A stretch of DNA of 49,363 nucleotides from contig JADGOO010000140.1 in NCBI GenBank assembly GCA_017882905.1, positions 1 to 49,363 of the forward strand, in the 5' to 3' direction. This document shows, one piece after another, positions 1,832 to 33,443 of this stretch. The stretch comes from Acidimicrobiia bacterium. GTDB taxonomy: Bacteria > Actinomycetota > Acidimicrobiia > IMCC26256 > PALSA-610. Under the pieces are notes generated by a model, which made no database searches, was not told the origin of the DNA, and saw only the letters and a program-made list of their open reading frames with translations. Each line of letters begins with the position of its first letter. Positions within the stretch are counted from its first letter, which is position 1. The position numbers and the translations under genes are program-made.

Positions 1832-1993
1832 GCGAGTCAGGTACCCACCGCCGGGCACGGCTAGCCATCGGTCCACGCACCGGTGCGCTCGCGCGGGGCG
1901 AGCGGGCGCATCGAGCGCGTTCACCAACCGGGTCGTTGGTCCCTTCTTGCCCCGCGCAGCCCCGCTCCTTACATGGCTCTCACCACCTCCGAG

Positions 1994-1999
1994 TACGGT
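1994..1999 (+). promoter_or_regulatory. Predicted -10 element (TACGGT) of a leaderless transcript
   Basis: TACGGT lies exactly 7 bases before an ATG at 2007, the spacing expected if transcription starts at the ATG itself. The -35 region is weak (TTACAT at 1969 with a 19-base spacer). It lies in the divergent region between the kinase and the propeller gene. Confidence 0.4.
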
Positions 2000-2006
2000 C
2001 GAGTCG

Positions 2007-2075
2007 ATGAGCATCGGTCTCGGTGCACCGCGTGGCGTCGATGCCGTGTCGAGCCCGGCGTCGCGGTCTCGCTGA
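2007..2075 (+). CDS. Leaderless leader mini-ORF, 22 residues
   Basis: The ORF starts at the ATG 7 bases after TACGGT and reads MSIGLGAPRGVDAVSSPASR plus two residues. Its TGA overlaps the ATG of the propeller gene by one base (TGATG). The downstream start has no Shine-Dalgarno sequence, so a ribosome finishing here could restart on the main gene. Two other genes in the window (27443 and 29273) show the same layout. The peptide has no recognisable domain and may serve only for coupling. Confidence 0.3.
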   Translation: MSIGLGAPRGVDAVSSPASRSR

Positions 2076-3340
2076 TGGCCCCGCGACCCACCCGGCGTCA
2101 GCTCCTCATCCGCCGCACCACCGTGTTGATCGCGGTCGTTGCGACCGTGTACGCGATCGCGGCGCATTTCTCGTCGTCGGGCCGCGCCGCACCATCCACA
2201 CTCTTGGGTGGCGCGGCGAGCGGGCGAGATGCGGCGACCAGCCGGCGATCGTCCGGCGCGCCGGTGAACGTCTATGCGCACACCTCCACGCTGCGTGCAG
2301 ATGTCGCGACCGACCTCCGGCGCGTCTACGTGCCGAGCGGCCGCGCCAACATGATCACCGAGATCGATCCGGCCACGATGAAAGTCGTCGCGCAGTTCTC
2401 GACCGGTCCGGGCACGCCCCCCCAGCACATCGTGCCGTCGTACGACCTCAAGACACTGTGGATCCTGAACAACAAGAGCGACTCGGTGGTGCCGATCAAC
2501 GCGCACACTGGCGCGATCGGTGCGCCGATCCCGGTGAACGACCCCTACAACCTCTACTTCACTCCCGGTGGCCGGTACGCGATCGTGGTTGCCGAGCTGC
2601 ATCAGCGACTCGACTTCCGCGACCCGCACACGATGGCGCTGCACAGCAGCCTCACCGTGTCGAAGTGCCGGGGGATCAACCATGCCGACTTCTCGAGTGA
2701 TGGCAGCTACATGCTCGTCACGTGCGAGTACTCGGGATCGATCGCCAAGATCGACGTCGCTCGGCGCAAGGTCGTGGGCTATCTCCAGCTTCCGACGCCG
2801 CCGGGCCGGCACGAGTTCATGGCCACGATGCCCGATCATTCGATGGCGACCTCGATGCCACAAGACGTGCGACTCAGCCCCGACGGCACGAAGTTCTACG
2901 TCGCCGACATGTTGCTGAGCGGCGTCCATGTGATCGACGGCGATCACCTGCGTGAGATCGCCTTCATCCCGACGGGCGTGGGTGCGCACAGGGTCACGCC
3001 GAGCCACGATGGTTCGGTGTTGTACGTCGCGAACCGCGGCTCGACGTTGACGTCCGCGCCACCGCACGGGCAGGGGAGCGTGAGCGTGCTCGACGCCGCT
3101 ACCGACCGCGTGATCGCCACGTGGCCGATCCCCGATGGCGGCAGCCCCGACATGGGGAACCTCACAGCCGACGGCCGTGAACTCTGGCTCTCGGGGCGCT
3201 TCGACCGCGAGGTCTACGTGTTCAACACGGCGACGGGTGCGCTGATCGCGCGCATTCCCGTTCCGAGCGGACCGCACGGTCTCACCGTCTGGCCGCAGCC
3301 GGGCCGCTTCTCGCTCGGCCACACCGGCAACATGCGGTAG
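2075..3340 (+). CDS. Secreted/membrane-anchored YVTN-type beta-propeller protein
   Basis: About 421 residues. The N-terminus is basic, with one hydrophobic segment (TVLIAVVATVYAIAA) that acts as a signal anchor. The rest is a series of blade-like repeats of about 45 residues with features such as RRVYVPSGRANMITEIDP, LSPDGTKFYVADMLLSGVHV and SHDGSVLYVANRGS. These are typical of the YVTN/40-residue lactonase-like propeller superfamily found in surface proteins. Such proteins usually bind ligands or other proteins outside the cell; I see no catalytic signature. The ATG has no Shine-Dalgarno sequence and overlaps the stop of a 22-residue ORF. An upstream extension of the frame to 1883 looks non-coding. 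Confidence 0.8.
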   Translation: MAPRPTRRQLLIRRTTVLIAVVATVYAIAAHFSSSGRAAPSTLLGGAASGRDAATSRRSSGAPVNVYAHTSTLRADVATDLRRVYVPSGRANMITEIDPATMKVVAQFSTGPGTPPQHIVPSYDLKTLWILNNKSDSVVPINAHTGAIGAPIPVNDPYNLYFTPGGRYAIVVAELHQRLDFRDPHTMALHSSLTVSKCRGINHADFSSDGSYMLVTCEYSGSIAKIDVARRKVVGYLQLPTPPGRHEFMATMPDHSMATSMPQDVRLSPDGTKFYVADMLLSGVHVIDGDHLREIAFIPTGVGAHRVTPSHDGSVLYVANRGSTLTSAPPHGQGSVSVLDAATDRVIATWPIPDGGSPDMGNLTADGRELWLSGRFDREVYVFNTATGALIARIPVPSGPHGLTVWPQPGRFSLGHTGNMR

Positions 3341-3369
3341 CGACGGCGCGGTCTCCGGCGCCCAGCCGG

Positions 3370-3398
3370 TTGCGGGGAACCGACGGCGGTCGTACCGT
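3370..3398 (+). promoter_or_regulatory. Promoter, TTGCGG-17-TACCGT, leaderless
   Basis: TTGCGG (3370-3375) and TACCGT (3393-3398) are separated by 17 bases. TACCGT ends 7 bases before the ATG at 3406, so the transcript is probably leaderless. The same TACCGT-N7-ATG occurs before the gene at 26706. Confidence 0.5.
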
Positions 3399-3405
3399 CT
3401 GGAAC

Positions 3406-3999
3406 ATGCGATTCCACGTCGGCGGCAAGCTCGCAGCGTCGATCGCGGTCGCGACCCTTGTGGCCGCGGCCACGGCAGGCGGCGCCCAGGCTTCGGGCCG
3501 CAACTTCGTCAGCGACGGAAGCTTCGAGTCCCCTGTGGTCTCGTCGCTCTACGACAACGTCCTTCCGGGCCAGTCGTTCGAGGGATGGACGGTGTCGCAG
3601 GCTGTCGTGAGCCTGGGGCGTGCGATTCCCGGTCTCGTGACGGCGTACACCGGCACGCAGTTCGTCTCACTCGTCGATGCCGGTGCGACGACCCCGCAGA
3701 CGCCCGGAACGCTCTGCAAAGTCGTCAAGGGTCTCGTGCCGGGGCACACCTATCGCGGCGAGGTGCATCTCGCGTCGATGTACCAACCCACCACGTACAA
3801 CCTGCAGTTCGGTGCCACCGGGGCAGCAGTTCCGATCGCAGCGTCACAACCCGGCCACATCAGCTGGACGACGATTGCGGCAAGTCAAGGCATTGCCACG
3901 ACGAGCGTACGTGTGTGTGTTGGTGCCGACATCTCCACCACGGGCGTCGCGTTCCCTCTGGTCGACGCGGTGAGCGTTCGCGACGTGACCGCGGGCTAG
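3406..3999 (+). CDS. Secreted DUF642 / choice-of-anchor-C-like beta-sandwich protein
   Basis: 197 residues with a Sec signal peptide ending around AATAGGAQASG. The mature part begins NFVSDGSFESPVV, continues with GQSFEGWTVSQAVVSLG and ends with a strand containing DAVSVRDV. This order (GSFE-P, GW-V, and a final V-DAVSV) is the hallmark of DUF642 and choice-of-anchor-C carbohydrate-binding-like folds. Two Cys (LCKVV and VCVGA) could form a disulphide. The role is probably binding of cell-surface or environmental polysaccharide; the substrate is unknown. The ATG is preceded by a near-consensus leaderless promoter. The ORF could extend to a TTG at 3370, but that TTG is the -35 element. Confidence 0.7.
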   Translation: MRFHVGGKLAASIAVATLVAAATAGGAQASGRNFVSDGSFESPVVSSLYDNVLPGQSFEGWTVSQAVVSLGRAIPGLVTAYTGTQFVSLVDAGATTPQTPGTLCKVVKGLVPGHTYRGEVHLASMYQPTTYNLQFGATGAAVPIAASQPGHISWTTIAASQGIATTSVRVCVGADISTTGVAFPLVDAVSVRDVTAG

Positions 4000-4112
4000 G
4001 CCGCACCGCTTGGTCGACGACGCGGCGAAGGTCTGCGGGCTCTGATCCACACCGTCAGCGCACCGCTCGACCACCCCGAGTAGGTTGACGGCGCTCAGAG
4101 GGGGCTCGTCGC

Positions 4113-4835
4113 GTGGTGCTGTTGTCGGTCGAGGATCTGCTCGTCACGTTCGGCGGCGTTGTCGCGATCGCCGACCTGTCGTTCACGCTCGACGAGGGTC
4201 AGATCTGCGCCCTCATTGGCCCCAATGGCGCCGGCAAGACCACGCTGTTCAACTGCGTCAGCCGCCTCTACGAGCCGAAGAGCGGCCGGATCACATTCGA
4301 CGGCCACGAGCTGTTGCGCATGCCGGCATATCGCATCGCGCGCCTTGGGATCGCGCGCACGTTCCAGAACCTTGCGCTGTTCCCGGCGCTCTCCGTGACG
4401 GACAACGTGCTCGTCGGTGGCTACGCGCAAGGCAAGGTCAACGCCAAGCGCCGTGCCGAGGCACGCGACATCCTCGAACGCCTGTCACTCGACCACCTGG
4501 CGGACCGCCCTGCGGTCGGATTGCCGTACGGCACGCTCAAGCGCATCGAGATCGCGCGTGCGCTCGCCGGCCGGCCTCGCCTGTTGATGCTCGACGAGCC
4601 TGCGGCCGGCCTCACCCACTCCGAGGTCGACGAGCTGAGCGAGCTCGTCCGAGCGCTTCGCGACGAGTTCCATCTCAGCGTGCTCCTCGTCGAGCACCAC
4701 ATGGCGATGGTGATGTCGATCTCCGACAAGGTCGTCGTGCTCGACTTCGGCGGCAAGATCGCCGAAGGCACGCCGGAGGAGACGCGCGCCAACCCCCGTG
4801 TGGTCGAGGCGTATCTCGGAGCTCCCGCGTCATGA
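4113..4835 (+). CDS. livG: Branched-chain amino acid-type ABC transporter ATPase LivG
   Basis: 240 residues, the usual LivG length. It has Walker A GPNGAGKTT near residue 38, the LivG-type R-G-ARTFQN motif after the Q-loop region, signature LPYGTLKRIEIARAL in place of LSGGQ, Walker B LLMLDEPAAGL, and the switch His in LLVEHHM. It hydrolyses ATP on the cytoplasmic side to drive uptake of amino acids or related carboxylates. It is the first gene of a five-gene operon, livG-livF-livH-livM-livK. The GTG start follows a purine-rich AGAGGGGG. Its TGA overlaps the ATG of livF. Confidence 0.93.
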   Translation: MVLLSVEDLLVTFGGVVAIADLSFTLDEGQICALIGPNGAGKTTLFNCVSRLYEPKSGRITFDGHELLRMPAYRIARLGIARTFQNLALFPALSVTDNVLVGGYAQGKVNAKRRAEARDILERLSLDHLADRPAVGLPYGTLKRIEIARALAGRPRLLMLDEPAAGLTHSEVDELSELVRALRDEFHLSVLLVEHHMAMVMSISDKVVVLDFGGKIAEGTPEETRANPRVVEAYLGAPAS

Positions 4836-5542
4836 GCGTGCTCTTGGAGGTGTCGGAGCTGCGAGCGTCGTACGGCGCGGTGCGCGTGCTGCACGGCCTC
4901 GACTTCGTCGTCAACGAAGGTGAAGCAGTCGTCATCCTCGGCGCGAACGGCGCGGGCAAGACCACCACGTTGCGGGCGCTCTCCGGCATGGTCGAGACGT
5001 CTGGTCACGTGCACTTCGACGGGCATTCGATCGTAGGGAGCCGCTCCGAGCAGATCTCGCGGATCGGCATCGCGCACGTGCCGCAAGGTCGCGGCACCAT
5101 CGTCGATCTCACCGTGGCCGAGAACTTGCGCATCGGCGCGTATCGCCGCCGCGACCGCGAAGTCGCCGCCGACATCGAGCGGTGGTACGACGTGTTCCCG
5201 AAGCTCGAGGCACGGGCCGATCAGCAGGCCGGCAACTTGAGCGGCGGTGAACAGCAGATGCTCGCCATCGCACGAGCCCTCATGTCGCGCCCGAAGCTCG
5301 TGCTCCTCGATGAGCCGTCGCTCGGACTGGCGCCGATCGTGACCCAAGAGCTGTTCCGCACGCTGGGTGAGCTGAACCACACAGAGGGGCTCTCGATGCT
5401 CATCGTCGAGCAGAACGCGAACCTGGCTCTTGGCATCGGATCGCGCGGCTACGTGCTCGAGACCGGGTCGATCGTCGTGTCGGGAACGACCGACGAGCTC
5501 GCGGGTGACGACGGCGTCCGCCGTGCGTATCTCGGGGTCTAG
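4832..5542 (+). CDS. livF: Branched-chain amino acid-type ABC transporter ATPase LivF
   Basis: 236 residues. It has Walker A GANGAGKTT, the LivF hallmark VPQGRGTIVDLTVAENL, signature LSGGEQQMLAIARAL, Walker B LVLLDEPSLGLAP and the switch region IVEQNA. It forms the ATPase pair with LivG. The ATG overlaps the livG stop (ATGA), so the two subunits are co-translated. The frame is open upstream as a shadow inside livG, so the start was set by the overlap and the conserved N-terminus LLEVSELRASYG. Confidence 0.93.
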   Translation: MSVLLEVSELRASYGAVRVLHGLDFVVNEGEAVVILGANGAGKTTTLRALSGMVETSGHVHFDGHSIVGSRSEQISRIGIAHVPQGRGTIVDLTVAENLRIGAYRRRDREVAADIERWYDVFPKLEARADQQAGNLSGGEQQMLAIARALMSRPKLVLLDEPSLGLAPIVTQELFRTLGELNHTEGLSMLIVEQNANLALGIGSRGYVLETGSIVVSGTTDELAGDDGVRRAYLGV

Positions 5543-5551
5543 GGGCAGCCG

Positions 5552-6433
5552 ATGTCGCTCTTCCTCACGCAGCTGATGAACGGGATCGGCAACGGTGCGG
5601 TGTACGCGTCGCTCGCCCTCGCCCTCGTGCTCATCTTCCGCACCACTGGGATCCTGAACTTCGCGCAGGGCGAGATGGCCCTCTACTCCACCTATCTCTT
5701 CTGGTACTTCACCGACCGCGGGCTTCCCGTGGTTGTGGCGATCCTCGCCGCGATGGCGCTGTCGTTCATCGGTGGCGCGCTCGTCGAGCGAGTCGTGATC
5801 CGGCCCGTCGAGCACTCGTCACCGCTCGTGCTCGTGATCGTGACGATCGGCTTGTTCCTCGCGCTCAACTCCATCGTGCAGGTGCAGTTCGGCTCCGACA
5901 TCAAGACGAACCTGCCCCGCGCGTACCCGAAGCACACGTGGCGTCCGGGCAACGTGCAGATCTCCGCCGACACGCTCGTTCTCGTGGGCATGCTCGCCGT
6001 CGTATGCGTGCTGCTCTACCTGCTCTTCCAGCGCACGAAGATCGGGCTCGCCATGCGCGCCGTCGCGTCGAGTTCGGAGTCGGCCCGGCTGTCGGGTGTG
6101 CCCGTGGGCCAGATGCTGATGTTCGGCTGGGGTCTGGCCGCCGCGCTCGGCGCGCTGGCCGGCGTGCTCGTGATCCCGCAGATCGGGCTGCAGGCATCGT
6201 CGATGCAATCGATCCTGGTGTTCTCGTTCGCCGCCGCGGCACTCGGCGGCTTCGACAGTCCAGTCGGCGCCGTGGTCGGTGGCCTCATCGTCGGTGTGGC
6301 CGAGGCGCTCACCACGCAGTATGTGCACGCGCTCAACGGCATCGTGCTCATCGTCCCGTTCGGGTTGATCCTCGGGGTGCTGATGGTGCGACCACAAGGA
6401 CTGTTCGGACGGCGAACCGTGGAGCGCGTGTGA
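5552..6433 (+). CDS. livH: Branched-chain amino acid-type ABC permease LivH
   Basis: 293 residues with about eight hydrophobic segments. The N-terminus has the LivH hallmark GIGNGAVYASLALALVLIF followed by GILNFAQGEMALYS. The cytoplasmic EAA-like loop contains KIGLAMRAVASSSESARLSGV, which docks onto LivG/F. It forms the transmembrane pore with LivM. It starts 9 bases after livF, and its TGA overlaps the livM ATG (TGATG). Confidence 0.93.
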   Translation: MSLFLTQLMNGIGNGAVYASLALALVLIFRTTGILNFAQGEMALYSTYLFWYFTDRGLPVVVAILAAMALSFIGGALVERVVIRPVEHSSPLVLVIVTIGLFLALNSIVQVQFGSDIKTNLPRAYPKHTWRPGNVQISADTLVLVGMLAVVCVLLYLLFQRTKIGLAMRAVASSSESARLSGVPVGQMLMFGWGLAAALGALAGVLVIPQIGLQASSMQSILVFSFAAAALGGFDSPVGAVVGGLIVGVAEALTTQYVHALNGIVLIVPFGLILGVLMVRPQGLFGRRTVERV

Positions 6434-7509
6434 TGGTCTCGAGGCGACAGACACAGGTGATCGGCTTGGTCATGTCGATCATCGTGCTGGTGCTGCTGAT
6501 CTGGCTGCCGCATCACAACGGGTCGACGAACACGCTTCGGTGGGCACAGGTGCTCTACATCGGCGTGGCCGCGATGGGCCTCAACCTGCTCACCGGGTAC
6601 AACGGGCAGGTGTCGATCGGCCACGGCGCGTTCTTCGGCGTCGGTGCGTACACGAGTGCGTTGCTCATGCACAACCACGGATGGTCGTTCCTGCCGACGT
6701 TGCTCGTCGCCGCGCCGTTGTGCTTCTTGGTCGGCGTGTTGGTGGGCTTCCCGGCGCTGCGCGTGAAGGGTCTCTACCTCGCGCTCGTCACGTTGGGCCT
6801 CGCCGTGCTCTTCCCCGATCTCACGAAGAAGTACGTGCACGCCACCGGCGGAACGAACCTCGTCTCCCTCAACCGGGGTGAGCTGTCGCCACCGGCGTGG
6901 GTGCCCACCTCGGTGTCGGCGATCGGCCGCGACGACCAGTGGGCGTACTACGTGTGCCTCGGCGCGGCCGTCGTGCTCGTGATCGCTGCGCTGCTGATCG
7001 TGCGCAGCCGCTTCGGGCGCGCGCTCATCGCTGTCCGCGACCACGAGTCGGCTGCTGCGAGTGTGGGGATCAACGCCGCCCGCGTGAAGGTGATGGCGTT
7101 TGCGCTCAGTGCGCTCTATGCCGGGATTGCCGGTTCGTGCTCCGTGCTCGTGACCCACCTGGCGAACGCCGAGAAGGTGCAGACGTTCCAGCTCTCGATC
7201 GAGTTCCTCGTCGCGCTCGTGATCGGTGGCACGGCCACCGTCGTCGGCCCGCTGCTCGGCGCATGGCTGGTCGTCACGCTGCAGCACTGGATCTCCGACA
7301 CGCTCCCGCAGCACGTCGGTTCGCTCGGACCGCTCAAGCGCGTGCTGGGCGACCCGGCGGCATCGCCTGCGCTCTTCGGGATCATGCTGATCTTGTTCGT
7401 CTTCGTGCTCCCCGACGGCGTTGTCGGTGGGTTCCGCCGCGCGTGGGCGCGATTTGTTCGCAATCGCAATCAGACGCCGCACCATGCGCCCGCACCCCTC
7501 GCGACATGA
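6433..7509 (+). CDS. livM: Branched-chain amino acid-type ABC permease LivM
   Basis: 358 residues, the usual LivM length. It has the conserved LLTGYNGQVSIGHGAFFGVGAYT-like block (GYNGQVSIGHGAF), then LRVKGLYLALVTLGLAV, and the docking loop RFGRALIAVRDHESAAASVG. It has eight to ten hydrophobic segments. The C-terminal tail after PDGVVGGFRRAWARF is polar and short. It is the partner of LivH. The frame is open far upstream but that is shadow; the start was chosen from the one-base overlap with livH and the hydrophobic N-terminus. Confidence 0.93.
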   Translation: MVSRRQTQVIGLVMSIIVLVLLIWLPHHNGSTNTLRWAQVLYIGVAAMGLNLLTGYNGQVSIGHGAFFGVGAYTSALLMHNHGWSFLPTLLVAAPLCFLVGVLVGFPALRVKGLYLALVTLGLAVLFPDLTKKYVHATGGTNLVSLNRGELSPPAWVPTSVSAIGRDDQWAYYVCLGAAVVLVIAALLIVRSRFGRALIAVRDHESAAASVGINAARVKVMAFALSALYAGIAGSCSVLVTHLANAEKVQTFQLSIEFLVALVIGGTATVVGPLLGAWLVVTLQHWISDTLPQHVGSLGPLKRVLGDPAASPALFGIMLILFVFVLPDGVVGGFRRAWARFVRNRNQTPHHAPAPLAT

Positions 7510-7521
7510 AAGGATCTGATC

Positions 7522-8910
7522 ATGATCGCTCACCGCACTGAGGGTTCCACCTCGTCTCGGAAGCTGCGCTTCGTCGCGCTCGGCACCGTGCTCGCGCTCG
7601 CGGCCGCCGCGTGCGGCAGCAACCGGGGGACCAGCTCCACCACGACCAGCAAGACGCCGTCGTCGGGTGGTGGAGCGACGGCGCCGGTCGTCGACACGTC
7701 GGGCTGCCCCACGGCGAACGACACCACGGGCGTCAGCGGCGACACGATCACGATCGGCACGAGCCTGCCCGAATCAGGCCTCTACGCGGCCTTCACCGCG
7801 ATCCTGAAGGGTGAGAAGTCGTACTTCTCGTACATGAATGCGCAGGGCGGGATCGAAGTGCCTGCGGGGAGCGGCAAGAAGTACAAGATCAACCTCATCG
7901 CCAAAGACGACGCCTACGACGCCGCCAAGACCGTCACGAACGTGAACTCGCTCATCAACGACTCGAAGGTCTTCGCGCTCTTCAACACGGTAGGCACGAA
8001 GAACAACCTGGCGATCCGCGACACGTCCGACACGCAGTGCGTCCCCGACCTGCTGATCGCATCGGGCGCAGTGCAATGGGGCAACCCGAAGTTCCCGTGG
8101 ATGCTGGGCTCCGAGCTGGTGCCGTATCCGCTCGAGATGCAGACGTTCGTCGACTACCTGCTGAAGAACAAGCCGAACGCCACGATCGCAGTGCTGAAGG
8201 CCAATGACGACTTCGGCCAGTCGTACGCCGACACGTTGCAGGCGCTCGTGAAGGGCACGAACCTGAAGATCGTGCAGACCCAGGGCTACGACCCCGAGGG
8301 CTCCGACGTGAAGGCTCAGGTCACGAGCCTTGCGGCCACGAAAGCCGACGCGTTCGTCATCGGGGGCACGCTGCTCGCCTGCCCGAACGCGCTCAACGCC
8401 ATGGGCGACGCCGGGTGGAAGCCCATCGTCTACATGTCGGGCACGTGTGTCTCGAAGGTGCTGCTCGGCATCGCGGGCAAGAACGCGCAGGGCGTGTTGA
8501 GCGTCACCTCGCTGCTGGACCCCGCCGACCCGGTGAACGCCTCGAACCCGGCGATGCAGCTCTACAAGGCGCAGGTGAAGAAGTACGCACCCGACGCCGA
8601 CACGAGCGACGGCATCGTGGCCTACGGCTGGACCACCGCAGCGCTGTTCGCCAAGATCCTGTCGCTGTCGCCGAAGCTCGACCGCGGCTCGGTGATGAAC
8701 ACGGCGCACACGGTGTCGGGCGTCACCGGCGTGGGCCTGCAGCTCGCGGGTTCCACGTGGTCCACGTCGGCCTCGGATCGCTTCATCGGCGAGACGTTCC
8801 AGCTGATCAACTACGACGCGACGGCAGGTCACTCGAACCCGGTCGGTCCGATCACCGACGACAACGGCAAGACCGCCAAGCTCTCGCCGGCGGTGTTGCT
8901 CAACTCGTAG
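7522..8910 (+). CDS. Periplasmic-binding-type lipoprotein, LivK family (Peripla_BP_6)
   Basis: 462 residues. A signal peptide ends in a lipobox (LAAAACGS), a Thr/Ser linker follows, and then a type I solute-binding fold: GDTITIGTSLPESGLYAAF, YMNAQGGIEV, LIAKDDAYDAAKTVTNV, and the second lobe with DDFGQSYADTLQALV. This is the receptor of the upstream LivGFHM transporter. The ligand could be a branched-chain amino acid, an amide, urea or another small carboxylate; sequence alone does not decide. A good ribosome site (AAAGGA) sits 8 bases before the ATG. It is the last gene of the operon, whereas livK often comes first. Confidence 0.9.
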   Translation: MIAHRTEGSTSSRKLRFVALGTVLALAAAACGSNRGTSSTTTSKTPSSGGGATAPVVDTSGCPTANDTTGVSGDTITIGTSLPESGLYAAFTAILKGEKSYFSYMNAQGGIEVPAGSGKKYKINLIAKDDAYDAAKTVTNVNSLINDSKVFALFNTVGTKNNLAIRDTSDTQCVPDLLIASGAVQWGNPKFPWMLGSELVPYPLEMQTFVDYLLKNKPNATIAVLKANDDFGQSYADTLQALVKGTNLKIVQTQGYDPEGSDVKAQVTSLAATKADAFVIGGTLLACPNALNAMGDAGWKPIVYMSGTCVSKVLLGIAGKNAQGVLSVTSLLDPADPVNASNPAMQLYKAQVKKYAPDADTSDGIVAYGWTTAALFAKILSLSPKLDRGSVMNTAHTVSGVTGVGLQLAGSTWSTSASDRFIGETFQLINYDATAGHSNPVGPITDDNGKTAKLSPAVLLNS

Positions 8911-15728: not shown

Positions 15729-18350
15729 ATGCGCACGTGGCTCGGACGGGATCGGCTCGGAGGCGCGCGGCCCACGGCCGTGGCGATCGGCGCGGCCATC
15801 GTCACCGTCGCGTTCGCGACTGCCGGAGTGTTCGTGGCACCGACAACGCCGAGTGCGTCGGCGACCGTCGTCGGTGGCTACGAAGTGGCGACGATCGCCG
15901 ACACCGCGTATCCGATGCCGTCGGGCGCACTGTTCGTGGCCACGAACGGCTCGAACCACAATCCAGGAACGCTCGGGGCACCGTTCGCGACCATCGGGTG
16001 GGCGATCGCGGTCGCGAAGCAAGGCGCGACGATCGTCGTGCGCGGCGGTACCTACCGCGAGTCGCTCGGCGACATCGTCAAGCGGATCACGCTGCAGCCC
16101 TACCCGCACGAGCAGGTGTGGTTGAAGGGCAGCCTGGTCGTCACCGGCTTCGCGCCGGCCGCCAACGTGTGGGTGAAGTCGGGCTGGACCACATCGATCT
16201 GCCACAACTGCTATCCCGCCGGTGCCATCGACCCGCGTTACCCGGCGGCCGGGCTGCCCGACCAGGTGTTCTTCGACGGCGTCGCGCAGCGCCAGGTGCA
16301 GAGCGCGGGCGCAGTGGTGCCGGGCACGTTCTGGGTCGACACCATCGGCCATCGGCTGTTCGTGGGCAGCAACCCGGCGGGCCACGGTGTCGAGTCGACC
16401 TTCTACGACAAGGCCATGGAGTTCAGCACGGCCAACGCGACCGGTTCGGTGGTGCGCGGTATCGGCATCGCCGAGTATGCGGCGCACTACAACATGGACG
16501 TGCCTGCCGCCGTCATCGCCGGCACGAACAACCTCACCTTCGTCAAGGACACGTTCGCGTGGTCAGCGAGCCGTGGCTTGAGCGTGCTGCGACCGGGCGC
16601 GGTCGTGACCGACAACCTCTTCTTGTACAACGGCGCGAACGCGATCCACGGCAACCTCGCCGACGGCATCGTGGTAGAGCGCAACCGCGTCGCCTACTCG
16701 AACGAGGAGCACTTCTCGACGGCTGCCAACTCGCAGGCGTCGATCGGCGGCATCAAGCTCACGCCCACCCACAACGCGCTCGTGTGGGGCAATACCTTCG
16801 ACGACAACGACGCCACCGCGATCTGGTTCGACATCCTCTCCATGAACGTGGTCATCGCCGACAACACGATCGTGCGCAACAGCGGGCACGGTGTGGCGTT
16901 CGAGATCTCGACCTCGGCGATCATCGCCGGCAACGTGATCGCGACGAATGGTCGTGACGGCATCAAGATCAGTGGCTCGACGAACACCTCCGTGTGGAAC
17001 AACACGATCGTGGGCAACGCGACGGCGCAGCTCGGCGTGTACGACGACGCGCGCACCCAGTCGAACCCGCTGCTGCGGCTCGTGGGGCTCACGATGGACA
17101 CCGCCAACGTGAGCGTGTTCAACAACATCTTGGCCGGTGGCCCGAGCGCGAGTGGTCCGTTGTGGAACAGCTTCGATGCGTCGAGCCCGCGCCACCTCAC
17201 GTCGCTGCAGATGATCGCGGGTGACGGCAACAACCTCTGGTCGCGACCCACAATGCAGCAGCCGGCGATGGTCGCCGCGTGGCAGCCCACGCTCGGGAGG
17301 AGCGTGCCGTGGCAGACGTTGGCGTTGTTCCGCGGCGCGATCGCGCGCGAATCGGGGAGCGTCGCGGCCGACAACACGCCGCTCACGTCGCTGTTCACCA
17401 ATCCGGCCGCGAGCGACTACTCGTTGGCGCCGTCGAGCCCGGCGCGCGTCGCCGGCCATGCGCTGCCTGCGAACGTCGCTACTGCGATGGGCGTCCCGGC
17501 GGGCAACGTGCAACTCGGCGCGGTGACCGCCACCTTGGGCCCGCCTCCGCCCCCCGTGGCGACGCCGCCGGCACCGCCGACGCCGCGCGCACCCGGTGCG
17601 TCGGGCACACTCGGCTTCCGGCTCGCGGCGGGCGACGGCGGGATGTTCGACTTCGGCGCGGCGCGCTTTTACGGATCGACTGGTGCCATGCACCTCTGGC
17701 AGCCCATCGTCGGGATGGCGCCGACGGTCACCGGTCGGGGCTACTGGCTGGTGGCGCGCGATGGCGGCATCTTCAGCTTCGGCGACGCCGTGTTCTATGG
17801 GTCGATGGGTGGTCATCCGCTCAATCAACCGGTGGTCGCCATGGCGGCGACACCGACCGGTCGGGGCTACTGGCTGGTGGCGCGCGACGGCGGCATCTTC
17901 AGCTTCGGCGACGCACACTTCTACGGTTCGACGGGCGCGATCCGTCTGTGGCAGCCGATCGTGGGCATGGCGCCCGCTCGCACGGGGCAGGGCTACTGGC
18001 TCGTCGCCGCCGACGGCGGGACGTTCAGCTTCGGCACTGCGCCGTTCTACGGTTCGATGGGCGGCCACCCGCTCGGCGCGCCGATCACGGCCATGAGCAC
18101 GACGCGCACCGGCCACGGCTACTGGATGGTCGGTGCCGACGGTGCCGTGTTCGCCTTCGGTGACGCGTCGTTCCACGGCAGCGCCTACGGCGACCCGGTC
18201 CCCACCGTGGGGCTGGCGGCCACGGCGGCCGGCGATGGCTACTGGATCGCCGACGCGGCCGGCCATGTGCGCAACTACGGCGCGGCTCCGTACTTGGGCA
18301 CGATCAGCACACCGCTCAACCAGCCGGTCATCACGATGGCGTCGCTCTGA
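15729..18350 (+). CDS. Large secreted protein: right-handed beta-helix plus six-repeat C-terminal propeller-like module
   Basis: 873 residues. The signal segment (AVAIGAAIVTVAFATAGVFV) ends near SASATV. Residues about 60-560 hold a right-handed parallel beta-helix: ALFVATNGSNHNPGTLGAPF is the typical DUF1565-like entry, followed by many Asn-containing coils (ADNTIVRNSGHGVAFEIS, NNTIVGNA). A Pro-rich linker (PPPPPVATPPAPPTP) leads to six imperfect repeats of about 41 residues from residue 629 to the end. No polysaccharide lyase active site can be assigned with confidence. It is probably a surface or secreted glycan-interacting protein. The start is supported by GGAGGAGG 15 bases upstream. The upstream open frame is a shadow of ppk2. 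Confidence 0.85.
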   Translation: MRTWLGRDRLGGARPTAVAIGAAIVTVAFATAGVFVAPTTPSASATVVGGYEVATIADTAYPMPSGALFVATNGSNHNPGTLGAPFATIGWAIAVAKQGATIVVRGGTYRESLGDIVKRITLQPYPHEQVWLKGSLVVTGFAPAANVWVKSGWTTSICHNCYPAGAIDPRYPAAGLPDQVFFDGVAQRQVQSAGAVVPGTFWVDTIGHRLFVGSNPAGHGVESTFYDKAMEFSTANATGSVVRGIGIAEYAAHYNMDVPAAVIAGTNNLTFVKDTFAWSASRGLSVLRPGAVVTDNLFLYNGANAIHGNLADGIVVERNRVAYSNEEHFSTAANSQASIGGIKLTPTHNALVWGNTFDDNDATAIWFDILSMNVVIADNTIVRNSGHGVAFEISTSAIIAGNVIATNGRDGIKISGSTNTSVWNNTIVGNATAQLGVYDDARTQSNPLLRLVGLTMDTANVSVFNNILAGGPSASGPLWNSFDASSPRHLTSLQMIAGDGNNLWSRPTMQQPAMVAAWQPTLGRSVPWQTLALFRGAIARESGSVAADNTPLTSLFTNPAASDYSLAPSSPARVAGHALPANVATAMGVPAGNVQLGAVTATLGPPPPPVATPPAPPTPRAPGASGTLGFRLAAGDGGMFDFGAARFYGSTGAMHLWQPIVGMAPTVTGRGYWLVARDGGIFSFGDAVFYGSMGGHPLNQPVVAMAATPTGRGYWLVARDGGIFSFGDAHFYGSTGAIRLWQPIVGMAPARTGQGYWLVAADGGTFSFGTAPFYGSMGGHPLGAPITAMSTTRTGHGYWMVGADGAVFAFGDASFHGSAYGDPVPTVGLAATAAGDGYWIADAAGHVRNYGAAPYLGTISTPLNQPVITMASL
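17613..18347 (+). repeat. Six protein repeats of about 41 residues (GYWLVA-DGGIFSFGDA type)
   Basis: Each repeat follows the pattern GYWLVA.DGG.FSFG.A.FYGS.G...L.QPIV.M. Repeats 1 and 3 share STGA-LWQPIVGMAP, and repeats 2 and 4 share SMGGHPL, so a two-repeat unit was duplicated. Repeats 5 and 6 are diverged. The DNA at 17731 and 17857 (126 bases apart) is almost identical for about 55 bases. Confidence 0.85.
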
Positions 18351-28076: not shown

Positions 28077-28120
28077 AGGGGTTTCCCCGATTCCTTCGGC
28101 GGTCTCGATCTCTAGGTTTC
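28077..28120 (+). promoter_or_regulatory. GGGGTTTCCCC box with -10-like CTAGGTT, copy 1
   Basis: The 18-mer AGGGGTTTCCCCGATTCC (28077-28094) is followed by exactly 17 bases and CTAGGTTTC (28112-28120). The same 18-mer with the same 17-base spacing to CTACGTTC occurs at 32086. The GGGG-TTT-CCCC core is a palindrome. It drives the secreted propeller-like gene at 28194 and is likely the site of a shared activator or a special sigma factor. Confidence 0.65.
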
Positions 28121-28193
28121 GTGGTGCGCCGGCGGACACCGATTCCCGATGGCCGAGGCGCCGTGAGTCGTCACCACGACGAGGGAGTCCGAG

Positions 28194-29066
28194 ATGAACC
28201 GCACGCAACGCCTGCTCCGCGCGGCGGCCGCCGCGATCCTGGTGGCCGCAATGACACTGGTCGCCGGCACGCCCTACGCCGGCGCGGTCACGCCGAAGAA
28301 CAACTCGATGCTGTTCTACCGGAACATCGGAACCCCGACCGGGTACCGGGCGACGCTCGCCAACGGCACCTACCTGTCGAAGGGCCCGTCGAGCTTCTCG
28401 AGCGGCTGGTCGCAGGTCGCCATCGACCGCGACAGCGTCATCTTCTACAACACCACGACGGGGCTGGGCGTGACCGGCACGTACATCAACGGCGTGTTCA
28501 CGCAGATGCACACCTACCACTTCTCCACCGGCTGGACGTACGTGGTCGCCGGCTGCAACACCATCTTCTTCTTCAACGTGAGGACACAGACGGCCGCGAT
28601 CGGAACGCTCGTCGGCGGGACGTTCAGTCAGACGGGTTCCTCGTCGGGATGGACGAACGTGCAGATGGTCGCGGCATCGTGCGATTCGCTGCTCGTCTAC
28701 AACTACACGGGCGGTGGGACGCTCACCATGCCGATGAACGACGGTGTGCTGGGCAGCGGAACGCTGTACCACCTCAGCGCGAAGTGGACCTCCATCGTGG
28801 CCACCGACGACAGCGTGATCTTCTACAACACCGGCACGGGAGTCGGCGCGTGGGGCCGTCTGATCGCCGGCCAGTTCACACAGACCGGTTCGAGCACGGG
28901 CTTCTCGAAAGGGCTCGGCGTGAGCGCCACGGCGACCAGCTTGTTCTTCTACACCGGTCCGGCGGGCACCGCCGGCATCGCCACGCTCAAGAGCGGCGTC
29001 TATCAGTACGTGCGATCGCTGAGTGGCTTCGCCACCAACTGGGCGATCATTGTCGGCGGTAAGTAA
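28194..29066 (+). CDS. Secreted six-repeat beta-propeller-like protein
   Basis: 290 residues with a Sec signal peptide ending near AGTPYAGAV. The mature part holds six imperfect repeats of about 42 residues, each with a D-SVIFYN-like strand: NNSMLFYRN, DSVIFYNTTTG, NTIFFFNVRT, DSLLVYNYTG, DSVIFYNTGTG and TSLFFYTGPAG. Each is followed by a G-L-G-F-QTGSS-GW segment. The last segment, TNWAIIVGGK, could close the ring with the first repeat. It resembles tachylectin-like or other carbohydrate-binding propellers; the function is unknown. It has a ribosome site GAGGGAG and lies 74 bases after the GGGGTTTCCCC promoter. Confidence 0.8.
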   Translation: MNRTQRLLRAAAAAILVAAMTLVAGTPYAGAVTPKNNSMLFYRNIGTPTGYRATLANGTYLSKGPSSFSSGWSQVAIDRDSVIFYNTTTGLGVTGTYINGVFTQMHTYHFSTGWTYVVAGCNTIFFFNVRTQTAAIGTLVGGTFSQTGSSSGWTNVQMVAASCDSLLVYNYTGGGTLTMPMNDGVLGSGTLYHLSAKWTSIVATDDSVIFYNTGTGVGAWGRLIAGQFTQTGSSTGFSKGLGVSATATSLFFYTGPAGTAGIATLKSGVYQYVRSLSGFATNWAIIVGGK

Positions 29067-29120
29067 CGGCGGCGATCCGTCTTCCTGTCGAACGACGCCG
29101 CCGCGCAACGCGGTCGACTG

Positions 29121-29151
29121 TGAGGGGCCGATCCAACGGATCGGCCCCTCA
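29121..29151 (+). terminator. Perfect 14-bp hairpin with 3-base loop
   Basis: TGAGGGGCCGATCC (29121-29134) and GGATCGGCCCCTCA (29138-29151) are exact reverse complements around the loop AAC. It stands between the secreted repeat protein and the LuxR gene, so it is a strong terminator candidate, although no T run follows. Confidence 0.7.
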
Positions 29152-29183
29152 CCGCGCGTCGGGACACGCAGCGGGCCGCGCGC

Positions 29184-29189
29184 TACGTT
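29184..29189 (+). promoter_or_regulatory. -10 element TACGTT of leaderless LuxR leader
   Basis: GCTACGTTC followed by GTG at N6 is shared with the DUF4242-like gene promoter (TACGTT 32122-32127, GTG 32134). No GGGGTTTCCCC box is present upstream of this copy. Confidence 0.45.
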
Positions 29190-29195
29190 CGCCGT

Positions 29196-29276
29196 GTGGG
29201 CTGGGCGCGACCGCACGGCGTTTCGCCGGAGGGCCGGCACCCGTCGCGTGGCGGAACGTTCCCGACGCGACGATGA
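29196..29276 (+). CDS. Leaderless leader mini-ORF, 26 residues, before the LuxR gene
   Basis: The GTG lies exactly 6 bases after TACGTT. The peptide reads MGWARPHGVSPEGRHPSRGG plus six residues. Its TGA overlaps the LuxR ATG (ATGA at 29273-29276). The LuxR start has no ribosome site, so translation of the regulator could depend on this ORF. It is small, basic and has no known domain. Confidence 0.35.
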   Translation: MGWARPHGVSPEGRHPSRGGTFPTRR

Positions 29277-32047
29277 ACATCTCGACGATGGTGGGCCGCG
29301 TCGACGAGAGACGCCGGATCGCGCATGCACTCGCGCGCGCGTCGGAGCTGTCGTCCCTGGTGATCGTGAGCGGCGAGGCCGGCATCGGCAAGAGCGCACT
29401 CTTCGGCTCGTCCGTTGAGGAGGCCCGAGCGTCGGCTGCCACGGTGCTCGTGAGCCGACCAGCGCGGGCCGAGGAGTCGTTCGCCTACTCCGCGCTCGCC
29501 GATCTGCTCGACGGCGTCTCCGGTGCGGCCCTCGATGCGCTCAGCGCTCCGGCGCGGCGGGCGCTCGACTTCGCGCTGCGGCGCGCCGATGATCCACCGC
29601 CCGATTTCGATGCGGGTGCGGTCGCGTTCGCGGCCGCGCAGCTGCTCGCCACACTCGCCGCGCCCGTGGTCTTGGCAATCGACGATGTGCAGTGGGTCGA
29701 CGCCTCGAGCGCCGCAGTCGTTGACTTCGTGCTCCGCCGCGTGCCCGCGGCCGGCATGTTCGTGCTGGCCGCGTGGCGAAGTGGAACGTCGTCGCGCTGC
29801 ACGTTCGTGAGCCGGCCACCCGATGCGCTCGCGTGCGAGACGATCGCGCTCGGCCCGGTTGGTGTGGCCGAGCTGCACCACATCATTCGTGAACGGGCCG
29901 GCATCGTCCCCACCCGGCCCGCGCTCGTCGGCATCGCCGAGATGTCAGGTGGCAACCCGCTCTTCGCGATCGAGCTTGCTCGCCATACCGCGGGCAGCCG
30001 TGTCGGCCAGCCGGTCGGTCAGGCGACCGGGGCGGCGCCGATGCCGCCGACGTTGCGCGATTCGCTCCGCCGGCGCCTGTCGTCGCTGAGCGACGACGCG
30101 CGAGCGACCCTGCTCGTCGTTGCCGCGCTCGGCCGCCCCTCGCTCGCGCAGGTGAGCGAGCTCGTGGCCGCAGAGGATCTCGAACGCGTGGAAGCCGACG
30201 GTGCGATCGTGATCCGCGACGGTCGAGTCGAGTTCTCGCATCCGCTCCTTGCCGCCGAGATCTACGCCTCGACGCCGACGATGACGCGGATCGCGATGCA
30301 CGCGCGGCTCGCCGCGAGCATGGGCAGCCTCGAGGAACGCGCCCACCACCTGGCGCTCGCGACCTCGAAGCCTGATGCGGCCGTCGCAAGTGAGATCGAC
30401 GCGGCCGCAGTGGCCGCGGCGAACCGCGGTGCGCCGCACGCCGCGGCCGATCTGGGCGAAGCGGCGGTGCGCCTCACGCCTGCGGCCGACCCCAACCTGT
30501 GGCGCCGTCAGGTCGCGCTGGCGGAGCACCGCTTCCGGGCCGGCGATGCGGCACTTGCCCGCCGTGGCCTCGAGGAGGCGCTGGATTCCATCGACGACAC
30601 AGCGCTGCGAGCCCGCTCGATGTTGCTGCTCGCCGAGATCGCCTTCGAGTCAGACACGCCGTCGGTCGCGATCGGGTACGCCACCCGCGCGGTGCGCGAC
30701 GCCCCCACGCCCGCACTCGAGGCCGAAGCGCGCGTGACGTTGGCCCGCGTGTACTACGACGACTTCAGCCAAGCCTGTGAGCACGCCCGCGAGGCCCGCG
30801 CGATCGTCGAACGCGAACCCTCCTTACCGGCCGACATCGTCGCGGCCGCGGAGCTGACCGCGGCGACGACGGCGTTCCTCGCCGGTGCGGGTCTCGACCG
30901 TGCGGCCTACGAGCGAGCGGCCGACATCGAAGCGACGAGCGCGCGTCGACCTCGACTCGCAGACTCGGCTCGCGCCGCGCTCGCCGCCGACCTGAAGTAC
31001 GCCGACCAGCTCGATGACGCTCGCATCGCCTTGCTCGCGCTGCACGAGGAATCGTTGGGCAGCGGCGACGAGAGCTCTCGGCCCTTCGCGCTGAGCCACC
31101 TACCCCAGCTCGAATTGTTCACGGGGAGCTGGGATGTGGCGGAGGCATGGGCGAACGAGCACCTGATGCTGGCCGAGGCGACGCGTCAACACGGGCAGAT
31201 CGTGCAGGCACGCTTCAACCTCGCGATGATCGCCGCCCACCGCGGCGACCTCGAACCCGCGCGCGCCCACGCGCTCCACGACCTCGAGGTCGCGATCGCG
31301 GCGAACGATCGGTGGACGATCGCGGCCCTGACTGCATTGCTTGGCTTCGTGGAGTGGAGCGACGGCGACGCGGTTGGCGCGTTGGCACACTTGCGGCGCT
31401 CGTTCGTCGAGCGCGAGGCCATGGGCCTGCGCGAGCCGGGCCGTTCGCGGTTCCTCGGCGACCACATCGAGACGTTGATCGCATGCGACGAGATCGACGA
31501 AGCGCGCGACCTCATTGCGCTCGTGTACGACCGATCGGTCGCGGTGGGGCGGCCGTCGGGGATCAGCGCCGCGCAACGGGGGAGCGGGCTGCTCCTCGCG
31601 CGCGACGGCGACCAGAGTGGCGCGCAGGATGCGTTCGCCGCTGCGCTCGCCGCGCTCGACGGTGTGCCGCTGCCGTTCGAGCGGGCGCGCACGTTGCTGG
31701 CGCAGGGCCAGGCGCTGCGGCGCGGGAAGGCCCGCCGCGCCGCCCGCGAGGTGCTGGCGGCGGCCCATGACGAGTTCACGCGACTCGGAGCGCAGCTGTG
31801 GGCCGCCCGCGCCTCGAACGAGATCGACCGGGTCGGCGGGCGAGTCTCGACGTCGTTGGAGCTCACGGATACCGAGCGACGTGTGGCCGAGCTCGCCGCG
31901 ACCGGGGCGTCGACCCGCGCCATCGCGGCGGCGGCGTACATCAGCGTGAAGACCGTCGAGGCGAACCTGACGCGCATCTACCGCAAGCTCGGCGTGACCT
32001 CACGTGCCGAGCTGGCCGCGCTGATGGCTGATGGCCGTCGGGGGTAG
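29273..32047 (+). CDS. Large AAA-LuxR transcriptional regulator (LAL/MalT-type)
   Basis: 924 residues. An N-terminal AAA/NACHT-like ATPase has Walker A VSGEAGIGKSALF near residue 36 and Walker B VVLAIDDVQWVDAS. A long helical TPR-like middle (about 380-850) follows. The C-terminal LuxR helix-turn-helix (about 862-920) has LTDTERRVAELAATGASTRA and ISVKTVEANLTRIYRKLGVTSRAEL. This LAL type senses a ligand and activates transcription on ATP binding. The gene lies between two GGGGTTTCCCC promoters, so it may control the neighbouring secreted protein and DUF4242 gene (inference). ATG 29273 was chosen because the preceding frame is not coding-like and the leader ORF ends there. Confidence 0.9.
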   Translation: MNISTMVGRVDERRRIAHALARASELSSLVIVSGEAGIGKSALFGSSVEEARASAATVLVSRPARAEESFAYSALADLLDGVSGAALDALSAPARRALDFALRRADDPPPDFDAGAVAFAAAQLLATLAAPVVLAIDDVQWVDASSAAVVDFVLRRVPAAGMFVLAAWRSGTSSRCTFVSRPPDALACETIALGPVGVAELHHIIRERAGIVPTRPALVGIAEMSGGNPLFAIELARHTAGSRVGQPVGQATGAAPMPPTLRDSLRRRLSSLSDDARATLLVVAALGRPSLAQVSELVAAEDLERVEADGAIVIRDGRVEFSHPLLAAEIYASTPTMTRIAMHARLAASMGSLEERAHHLALATSKPDAAVASEIDAAAVAAANRGAPHAAADLGEAAVRLTPAADPNLWRRQVALAEHRFRAGDAALARRGLEEALDSIDDTALRARSMLLLAEIAFESDTPSVAIGYATRAVRDAPTPALEAEARVTLARVYYDDFSQACEHAREARAIVEREPSLPADIVAAAELTAATTAFLAGAGLDRAAYERAADIEATSARRPRLADSARAALAADLKYADQLDDARIALLALHEESLGSGDESSRPFALSHLPQLELFTGSWDVAEAWANEHLMLAEATRQHGQIVQARFNLAMIAAHRGDLEPARAHALHDLEVAIAANDRWTIAALTALLGFVEWSDGDAVGALAHLRRSFVEREAMGLREPGRSRFLGDHIETLIACDEIDEARDLIALVYDRSVAVGRPSGISAAQRGSGLLLARDGDQSGAQDAFAAALAALDGVPLPFERARTLLAQGQALRRGKARRAAREVLAAAHDEFTRLGAQLWAARASNEIDRVGGRVSTSLELTDTERRVAELAATGASTRAIAAAAYISVKTVEANLTRIYRKLGVTSRAELAALMADGRRG

Positions 32048-32085
32048 CGGCGCGGGAGCGGGCTGCGAGACAGGGACGTGGGGAT

Positions 32086-32127
32086 AGGGGTTTCCCCGAT
32101 TCCGCCGACTGTCCCGCTCGCTACGTT
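32086..32127 (+). promoter_or_regulatory. GGGGTTTCCCC box with -10-like CTACGTT, copy 2
   Basis: AGGGGTTTCCCCGATTCC (32086-32103) is identical to the copy at 28077. CTACGTTC begins 17 bases later at 32121, as in copy 1. The GTG of the next gene starts 6 bases after TACGTT, giving a leaderless mRNA. Confidence 0.65.
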
Positions 32128-32133
32128 CTGAGT

Positions 32134-32400
32134 GTGACCGTCCGTTCGCTGTTCCTCGCCGAGCTCTACGCGCCTGATGCCACCACCGACTTCGCCGAGC
32201 AGGCCGTGGCGCGCCTGCGGCGCAGCCTCGGCCCCGTGAGCGTGACGGATCTCGTCACGGCGACGTTCGTGCCCGGCGACGGCATGCTGCTGTGCTCGAT
32301 CGTCGCGCCGTCCGCCGATCATGTCGTGGCCGGAGCCGTGGCGGCGGGGATCCACTTCGACCGCGTGAGCGCGGCGCTGCCGATCGGCGAGCAGAGGTGA
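32134..32400 (+). CDS. Small DUF4242-like ferredoxin-fold protein
   Basis: 88 residues. The N-terminal strand SLFLAELYAPDATTDF, the helix EQAVARLRRSL, and CSIVAPSADHVVAGAVAAGI followed by HFDRVSAALPI resemble the DUF4242 (nickel-binding-like) alpha/beta dimer fold, especially the C-x-x-x-AP-A---A--AG-p-drv ending. The biochemical role is unknown. The GTG start is leaderless under the GGGGTTTCCCC promoter. It lies 86 bases after the LuxR gene. The assignment rests on pattern memory only. Confidence 0.55.
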   Translation: MTVRSLFLAELYAPDATTDFAEQAVARLRRSLGPVSVTDLVTATFVPGDGMLLCSIVAPSADHVVAGAVAAGIHFDRVSAALPIGEQR

Positions 32401-32477: not shown

Positions 32478-33443
32478 ATGCGGCTTGTCCCTACGGCTCG
32501 ACGCGGCCGCGCCCGATTCGCGATTGCGCTCGCGGCCGTTCTGGCCAGTGCGCTCGTGGTGGGCTGCTCGAGCAGCAGCCCGAACCGAGATCCCGTGGCG
32601 GTCGTGAACCGCTCGGGGCACATCGTGGTCGTCGTCGAGGAGAACCACTCGGCCGAGACGATCCTCGGCGCCGCCGACCTTGCGCACTTCAACCAGCTCG
32701 AGCGCAGCGGCACGGTGCTCCAGCGCTACTTCGCCGTATCGCACCCGTCGTTGCCGAACTACCTCGCGCTGGTGAGCGGCTCGACACACGGCTTCCACGA
32801 CGACTGCGGTACGTGCTCGATCACGGGCCCGAACCTCGGTGAACAGCTCCAACAGGCCGGCATCAGCTGGAAGGTGTACGCCCAAGGCCTCCCCAAGCAG
32901 TGCGCGCACGCCGCGGTGCGCGGTGCGTACACCCGACGCCACGTGGCCCTGCTGTACTTCGCGTCGATCCGCAGCTCACAGGCGCTGTGCAGCCACATCG
33001 TGTCGTACGACCAGTTCAGCATCGACGTGAAGTCGGGCCAGCTGCCCACCTTCGCCATGGTCATCCCCGACGTCGATCACGACATGCATGGTCGGACCGA
33101 GCAACAGGACGACCCGCAGGCGCGTGTGCGCGCCGACGCGTTTATCGGCTCGCTCTACGACCTGCTCTCGTCGTCGTCCGCGTGGCAGGCCGACACCAGG
33201 CTCGTGATCACCTGGGACGAGGGCGGTGGAGTGAGCCCGCCACCCCACGGGTGCTGTGGCGGTGATGCGAATGGCGGCCACGTGGCAACGATCGTCGTCG
33301 GGCCGCAGGTGCCGGTCGGTTCCGACCGCACCGCGTATGACCACTACTCACTGCTCCGGTCGATCGAGTCGCGCTACGGGCTCGCGCATCTCGGCGCGGC
33401 CGCGCATGCCGCGAGTCACGACATCCCGTCGATCGTGGGTTGA
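32478..33443 (+). CDS. Secreted phosphoesterase (acid phosphatase / phospholipase C-like, PF04185)
   Basis: 321 residues. A lipobox-like signal (ALVVGCSSSS) is followed by the phosphoesterase fold: HIVVVVEENHSAETIL with the ENHS nucleophile motif, SHPSLPNYLALVSGSTHGF, and the metal-site residues in MVIPDVDHDMHG and LVITWDEGGG. The distal part (GGHVATIVVGPQVP, YDHYSLLRSIESRYGL) is typical of this family. It should hydrolyse phosphomonoesters or phospholipid heads outside the cell to gain phosphate. Cys-rich segments DDCGTCS and HGCCGGD may form disulphides. Confidence 0.88.
   Translation: MRLVPTARRGRARFAIALAAVLASALVVGCSSSSPNRDPVAVVNRSGHIVVVVEENHSAETILGAADLAHFNQLERSGTVLQRYFAVSHPSLPNYLALVSGSTHGFHDDCGTCSITGPNLGEQLQQAGISWKVYAQGLPKQCAHAAVRGAYTRRHVALLYFASIRSSQALCSHIVSYDQFSIDVKSGQLPTFAMVIPDVDHDMHGRTEQQDDPQARVRADAFIGSLYDLLSSSSAWQADTRLVITWDEGGGVSPPPHGCCGGDANGGHVATIVVGPQVPVGSDRTAYDHYSLLRSIESRYGLAHLGAAAHAASHDIPSIVG

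Follow-up and report, generated by a model that had tools for sequence, protein, structure and literature searches.

An 18-bp box flanking a LAL regulator gene in an Acidimicrobiia bacterium is a candidate class II operator that recurs beside LAL genes of other genomes

Here, we analyze an 18-bp box, AGGGGTTTCCCCGATTCC, that occurs twice in a 49,363-nucleotide contig of an Acidimicrobiia bacterium (JADGOO010000140.1; the whole stretch is referred to as the window), once on each side of a gene for a LAL (large ATP-binding LuxR) regulator. Based on the sequence, geometry and distribution of the box, we consider it probable that it is the operator of the LAL encoded between the two copies and works as a local class II activator site.

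Results

The two copies of the box (Table 1) are identical, with 0 mismatches, and each is followed after exactly 17 bases by CTAGGTT (copy 1) or CTACGTT (copy 2), with the hexamer starting 18 bases past the end of the box; on all of these points, the preliminary description was accurate. We write the general form of the box as AGGGNTTTCCCNGATTC. Each copy lies just upstream of a gene. No further site with ≤3 mismatches was found in the window, and 100 dinucleotide shuffles likewise yielded 0 such sites. With tandem and coding repeats set aside, few 18-mers of the window are repeated at long range, AGGGGTTTCCCCGATTCC among them. Separately, direct repeats with a 126-bp spacing at 17730-17908 (ACCGGTCGGGGCTACTGG... 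and GGCGGCATCTTCAGCTTC...) are apparently a coding repeat. The two copies of the box are merely 4 kb apart, as might be expected after a recent duplication of an intergenic segment; however, only the 18-mer and the −10 are shared, the spacers between them differ, and a Chloroflexota genome has this 18-mer at an unchanged distance from its −10. Together with a control pattern that gave 0 matches vs 28 (see below), these observations make duplication or chance an extremely improbable origin of the pair.

Table 1. Coordinates of predicted and proposed features in the window
Feature	Position	Strand	Basis or context
Operator copy 1 (predicted), AGGGGTTTCCCCGATTCC	28077..28094	+	Dyad GGG-N4-CCC, center 28082.5; cross-phylum matches
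−10 TAGGTT (predicted), secreted-protein promoter	28113..28118	+	Position after box; spacing statistics
Target gene 1 (proposed), 290-aa protein	28194..29066	+	N-terminal signal-like sequence, repeats
Hairpin, 15-bp perfect stem, GTGAGGGGCCGATCC-AAC-GGATCGGCCCCTCAC	about 29120..29152	+	Between target gene 1 and LAL gene
LAL regulator gene (AAA_16 + C-terminal GerE HTH)	29273..32047	+	Domain matches
Operator copy 2 (predicted), identical 18-mer	32086..32103	+	Dyad center 32091.5
−10 TACGTT (predicted), small-protein promoter	32122..32127	+	Position after box
Target gene 2 (proposed), 88-aa SCO4226-like protein	32134..32400	+	Sub-threshold PF14026 match

The gene between the copies encodes an N-terminal AAA ATPase (PF13191, AAA_16; E=8.1e-17) and a C-terminal GerE/LuxR HTH (PF00196; E=2.2e-12) in a protein of 924-975 aa. 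The longest ORF begins at 29120, and the ATG at 29273, giving 924 aa, is most likely the start. With an AAA domain, a C-terminal HTH and a length of about 900 aa or more, the protein is a LAL, in agreement with its earlier designation as a large AAA-LuxR regulator. The promoter of the LAL gene itself has no recognizable box. The hairpin upstream of the gene (z-score −4.4) has no T-run and likely represents a transcription boundary.

The gene behind copy 1 had been described as encoding a secreted repeat protein, which its signal-like N terminus supports. The protein matches no Pfam family, and no relatives were found in the 118 other genomes of the class that were sampled. A single paralogue, 63% identical, is encoded in the genome (contig C81, 2571-3416, minus strand; L025/L039), with a GTACGTT element upstream and no box. 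Structure prediction from the single sequence had low confidence (mean pLDDT 41) and gave mostly strands, and a PDB sequence search gave insignificant matches only. The gene behind copy 2 had been called DUF4242-like; here, the match to PF14026 (SCO4226-like), the family once called DUF4242, is weak and below the cut-off (E=0.015). Because the GTG of this ORF stands only 7 nt past the −10, its mRNA is probably leaderless. Directly downstream is a phosphoesterase-family gene (32478-33443; PF04185, acid phosphatase/phospholipase C-like) with a lipoprotein-like N terminus, which is possibly apart from the switch.

Assuming that transcription starts about 7 nt after the −10 hexamer, the GGG-N4-CCC dyad is centered at −42.5 relative to the inferred start in both promoters and spans about −47 to −38, upstream of the −35 slot, which is filled by GATTCC. 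A dyad centered near −42 occupies the class II position for activators of the LuxR family. CTASGTT appears to be an ordinary −10 of the TANNNT type because TACGTT is also present upstream of the box-less paralogue of the secreted-protein gene and upstream of the LAL gene.

Across the draft genome as a whole, which comprises 4.36 Mb in 259 contigs, exact AGGGGTTTCCCCGATTCC has 2 copies, both in the window and flanking the LAL gene. There are two more sites at 3 mismatches, and the one that was read in sequence (L003) has no evident promoter context. Strict forms of the box are absent from the other 57 genomes of the order and from the other 394 genomes of the class that were searched.

These data bear directly on the earlier proposal that the box is either a LuxR activator site or part of an alternative sigma factor promoter with GGGG...CCCC as its −35. 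An identical sequence at a fixed spacing to a conserved −10-like element would suit a promoter read by an alternative or ECF sigma factor. However, the box is a dyad that lies upstream of the −35 slot rather than in it, the −10 is of a generic type that also precedes a gene without a box, and 2 copies in the genome with 0 in 394 class relatives contrast with the many shared promoters expected of a sigma factor. We therefore regard a sigma factor promoter as very improbable. The LuxR half of the proposal is favored by where the dyad lies, by the LuxR/LAL genes to which boxes are linked in unrelated genomes, and by a likeness to PimM sites.

An exact scan across about 85,000 species genomes, for GGGGTTTCCCCGAT with TASGTT 18-22 bases on, returned two loci beyond this genome, one in a Chloroflexota genome (G395; L010/L029) and one in a planctomycete (L009). 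G395 contains the identical 18-mer, with the same spacing to the −10, and the variants AGGGTTTTCCCTGATTCC and AGGGTTTTCCCGGATTCC, each preceding a gene; the genes behind the three boxes encode a short lipoprotein-like ORF, a 345-aa ORF and an NmrA-like protein. The boxes of L029 adjoin the gene for a 926-aa LAL that is 32% identical to the LAL of the window. The three boxes are the sole matches to AGGGNTTTCCCNGATN{19,21}TA in that genome and its order (42 genomes). In the planctomycete, the box is located ahead of a gene for a PAS-HisKA_3 kinase, which is followed by that for a NarL-type response regulator. A literature search for GGGGTTTCCCC gave nothing relevant.

The relaxed pattern AGGGNWTTCCCNGATN{18,22}TANNNT was searched in 796 genomes, with the reversed pattern as control. 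Chloroflexota contributed 15 matches (11 of 400 genomes) and Actinomycetota, with this genome counted, 13 (10 of 396 genomes), i.e., a total of 28 vs 0 for the control across both phyla. The −10 was offset by 18 or 19 bases in 25 of the 28 matches (15-19 allowed; binomial p about 1e-7) and in 23 of 26 after removal of the window pair (p about 4e-7). Left-flank positions that are free in the pattern lean weakly to A, T and C, the dyad partners of the right-hand GAT. Five loci (L057, L082, L084, L085 and L086) have palindromes that are perfect or nearly so (e.g., TATCAGGGAATTCCCTGATA), with TANNNT at 19 bases; no GerE gene was found near them, and these palindromes may be the operator of a different regulator.

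GerE ORFs were present at 9 of 26 box loci (379 kb; window counted) and in 1 of 20 control stretches (360 kb; Fisher p=0.017); this control is small and was drawn from some of the genomes that carry the boxes. Among the boxes ending in GATTC[C/G], a subset defined after looking at the data, a LAL-type regulator gene adjoins in 5 of 7 loci from two phyla. The LAL is adjacent in the window, in L029, in L059, where it has two boxes, and in the actinomycetotal L087, where the LAL gene is followed ~29 bp on by AGGGTTTTCCCTGATTCC-N17-CTACATT and then by the gene for a predicted secreted Vgb/RTX protein. At L058, a 3-kb contig carries one box and, at its edge, a LuxR/GerE fragment. No LuxR gene was found in the fetched flanks of L078 and L079, of which the contig of L079 is short. 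The GATTC-tailed boxes precede genes for predicted secreted or repeat proteins at copy 1 of the window, L087 (Vgb lyase and RTX), L078 (cadherin/Ig) and L079 (RTX); in L029, L058 and L059, the gene products are predicted to be enzymes or to resemble them (NmrA, flavin oxidoreductases and SnoaL). The L078 protein (1919-8728, minus strand) is a predicted secreted protein of 2270 aa with cadherin/Ig and beta-propeller repeats; its gene lies behind a AGGGATTTCCCCGATTCC box, and the start codon follows the −10 at a distance of 232 bases.

No box was found near three LAL genes of similar divergence (L035, L036 and L037). Loci scanned with this outcome include those of LAL relatives in two genomes (G007 and G065) and of the genome's own paralogue on contig C162. 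The full-length box-linked LALs that were compared are 30-36% identical, a divergence matching that of box-less LALs, and a small LAL tree did not group them together. Accordingly, the operator has either persisted in LALs that diverged from each other or evolved more than once.

Discussion

We infer that the LAL, once activated by a signal, binds the box and stimulates transcription from both promoters. When active, a state in which it probably carries ATP and a ligand, the regulator would dock as a dimer on GGG-N4-CCC, centered at about −42.5 and next to the degenerate −35 (GATTCC) and the ordinary TANNNT −10. Acting in class II fashion, it would bring in the housekeeping RNA polymerase and thereby turn on two flanking genes, that for the secreted protein and the SCO4226-like one, making the locus a local switch with two targets.

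The box could instead be a GerE-type (LuxR/NarL) operator that is used mainly by another regulator of the LuxR family encoded at some other place in the genome, e.g., a NarL-type response regulator, with the neighboring LAL being incidental. The genome contains about a dozen further matches to the LAL, mostly in the GerE part, several relaxed boxes have no LAL nearby, and the planctomycete box precedes a PAS-kinase and NarL-type pair, suggesting that the site may not be LAL-specific. However, a distant regulator would be expected to have sites elsewhere, whereas the only two copies in 4.36 Mb flank the LAL gene, and the association of GATTC-tailed boxes with adjoining LAL-type genes in two phyla also argues against another main user. 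We consider this explanation unlikely.

The PimM-type PAS-LuxR regulators of Streptomyces use the operator CTVGGGAWWTCCCBAG at the −35 hexamer (PMC9774167, PMC4700089). The window core V-GGG-N-WWT-CCC-B fits the PimM core GGG-N-W-W-T-CCC; however, PimM sites have A where the window has G at position 5 and AG where it has GATTCC in the outer right arm, the CT/AG arms are not matched, and the box departs from the full 16-bp consensus. Moreover, PimM combines PAS and LuxR domains, while the neighbor in the window combines AAA_16 and GerE. The MalT-type regulator of Actinoplanes is an activator of the AAA-LuxR type that acts via palindromes overlapping the −35 in its local gene region (PMC7567727). 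MalT sites (GGGGA(T/G)GAGG; TCATCC-N5-GGATGA in Actinoplanes) differ in core sequence from the box, and MalT has many targets, with 17 start sites in Actinoplanes vs the two targets in the window.

The LAL-type regulator SCO6993 of Streptomyces coelicolor also binds short palindromic sites, for which a consensus could not be predicted; unlike the mechanism that we favor here, it represses, and its quoted protected sequences are unlike the window box (PMC9628970). By analogy to SCO6993, the LAL might use the box for repression or for dual regulation instead of class II activation, and from −42 a bound protein could also obstruct RNA polymerase. However, the −35 that the box abuts from upstream is a poor one, as in activator-dependent promoters, and PimM and Actinoplanes MalT activate from sites at or overlapping the −35. 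Hence, we view repression as quite improbable.

With activation by the LAL as the preferred explanation, the mechanism is one that is already known; what is new here is the sequence of the operator and the finding that it recurs next to LALs of two phyla. We tentatively suggest, with slightly more doubt than belief, that divergent LALs (30-36% identical) of Actinomycetota and Chloroflexota read AGGG-N-TTT-CCC-N-GATTC[C/G], with little variation, as an operator code common to both phyla, and that these LALs are portable switches with two or three targets, often for secreted repeat proteins. LAL regulators are widespread, and few of their binding sites have been defined. A fixed-geometry operator that recurs beside LALs of unrelated genomes provides a testable rule for target assignment and, if true, the operator code would let the targets of LALs be predicted from sequence.
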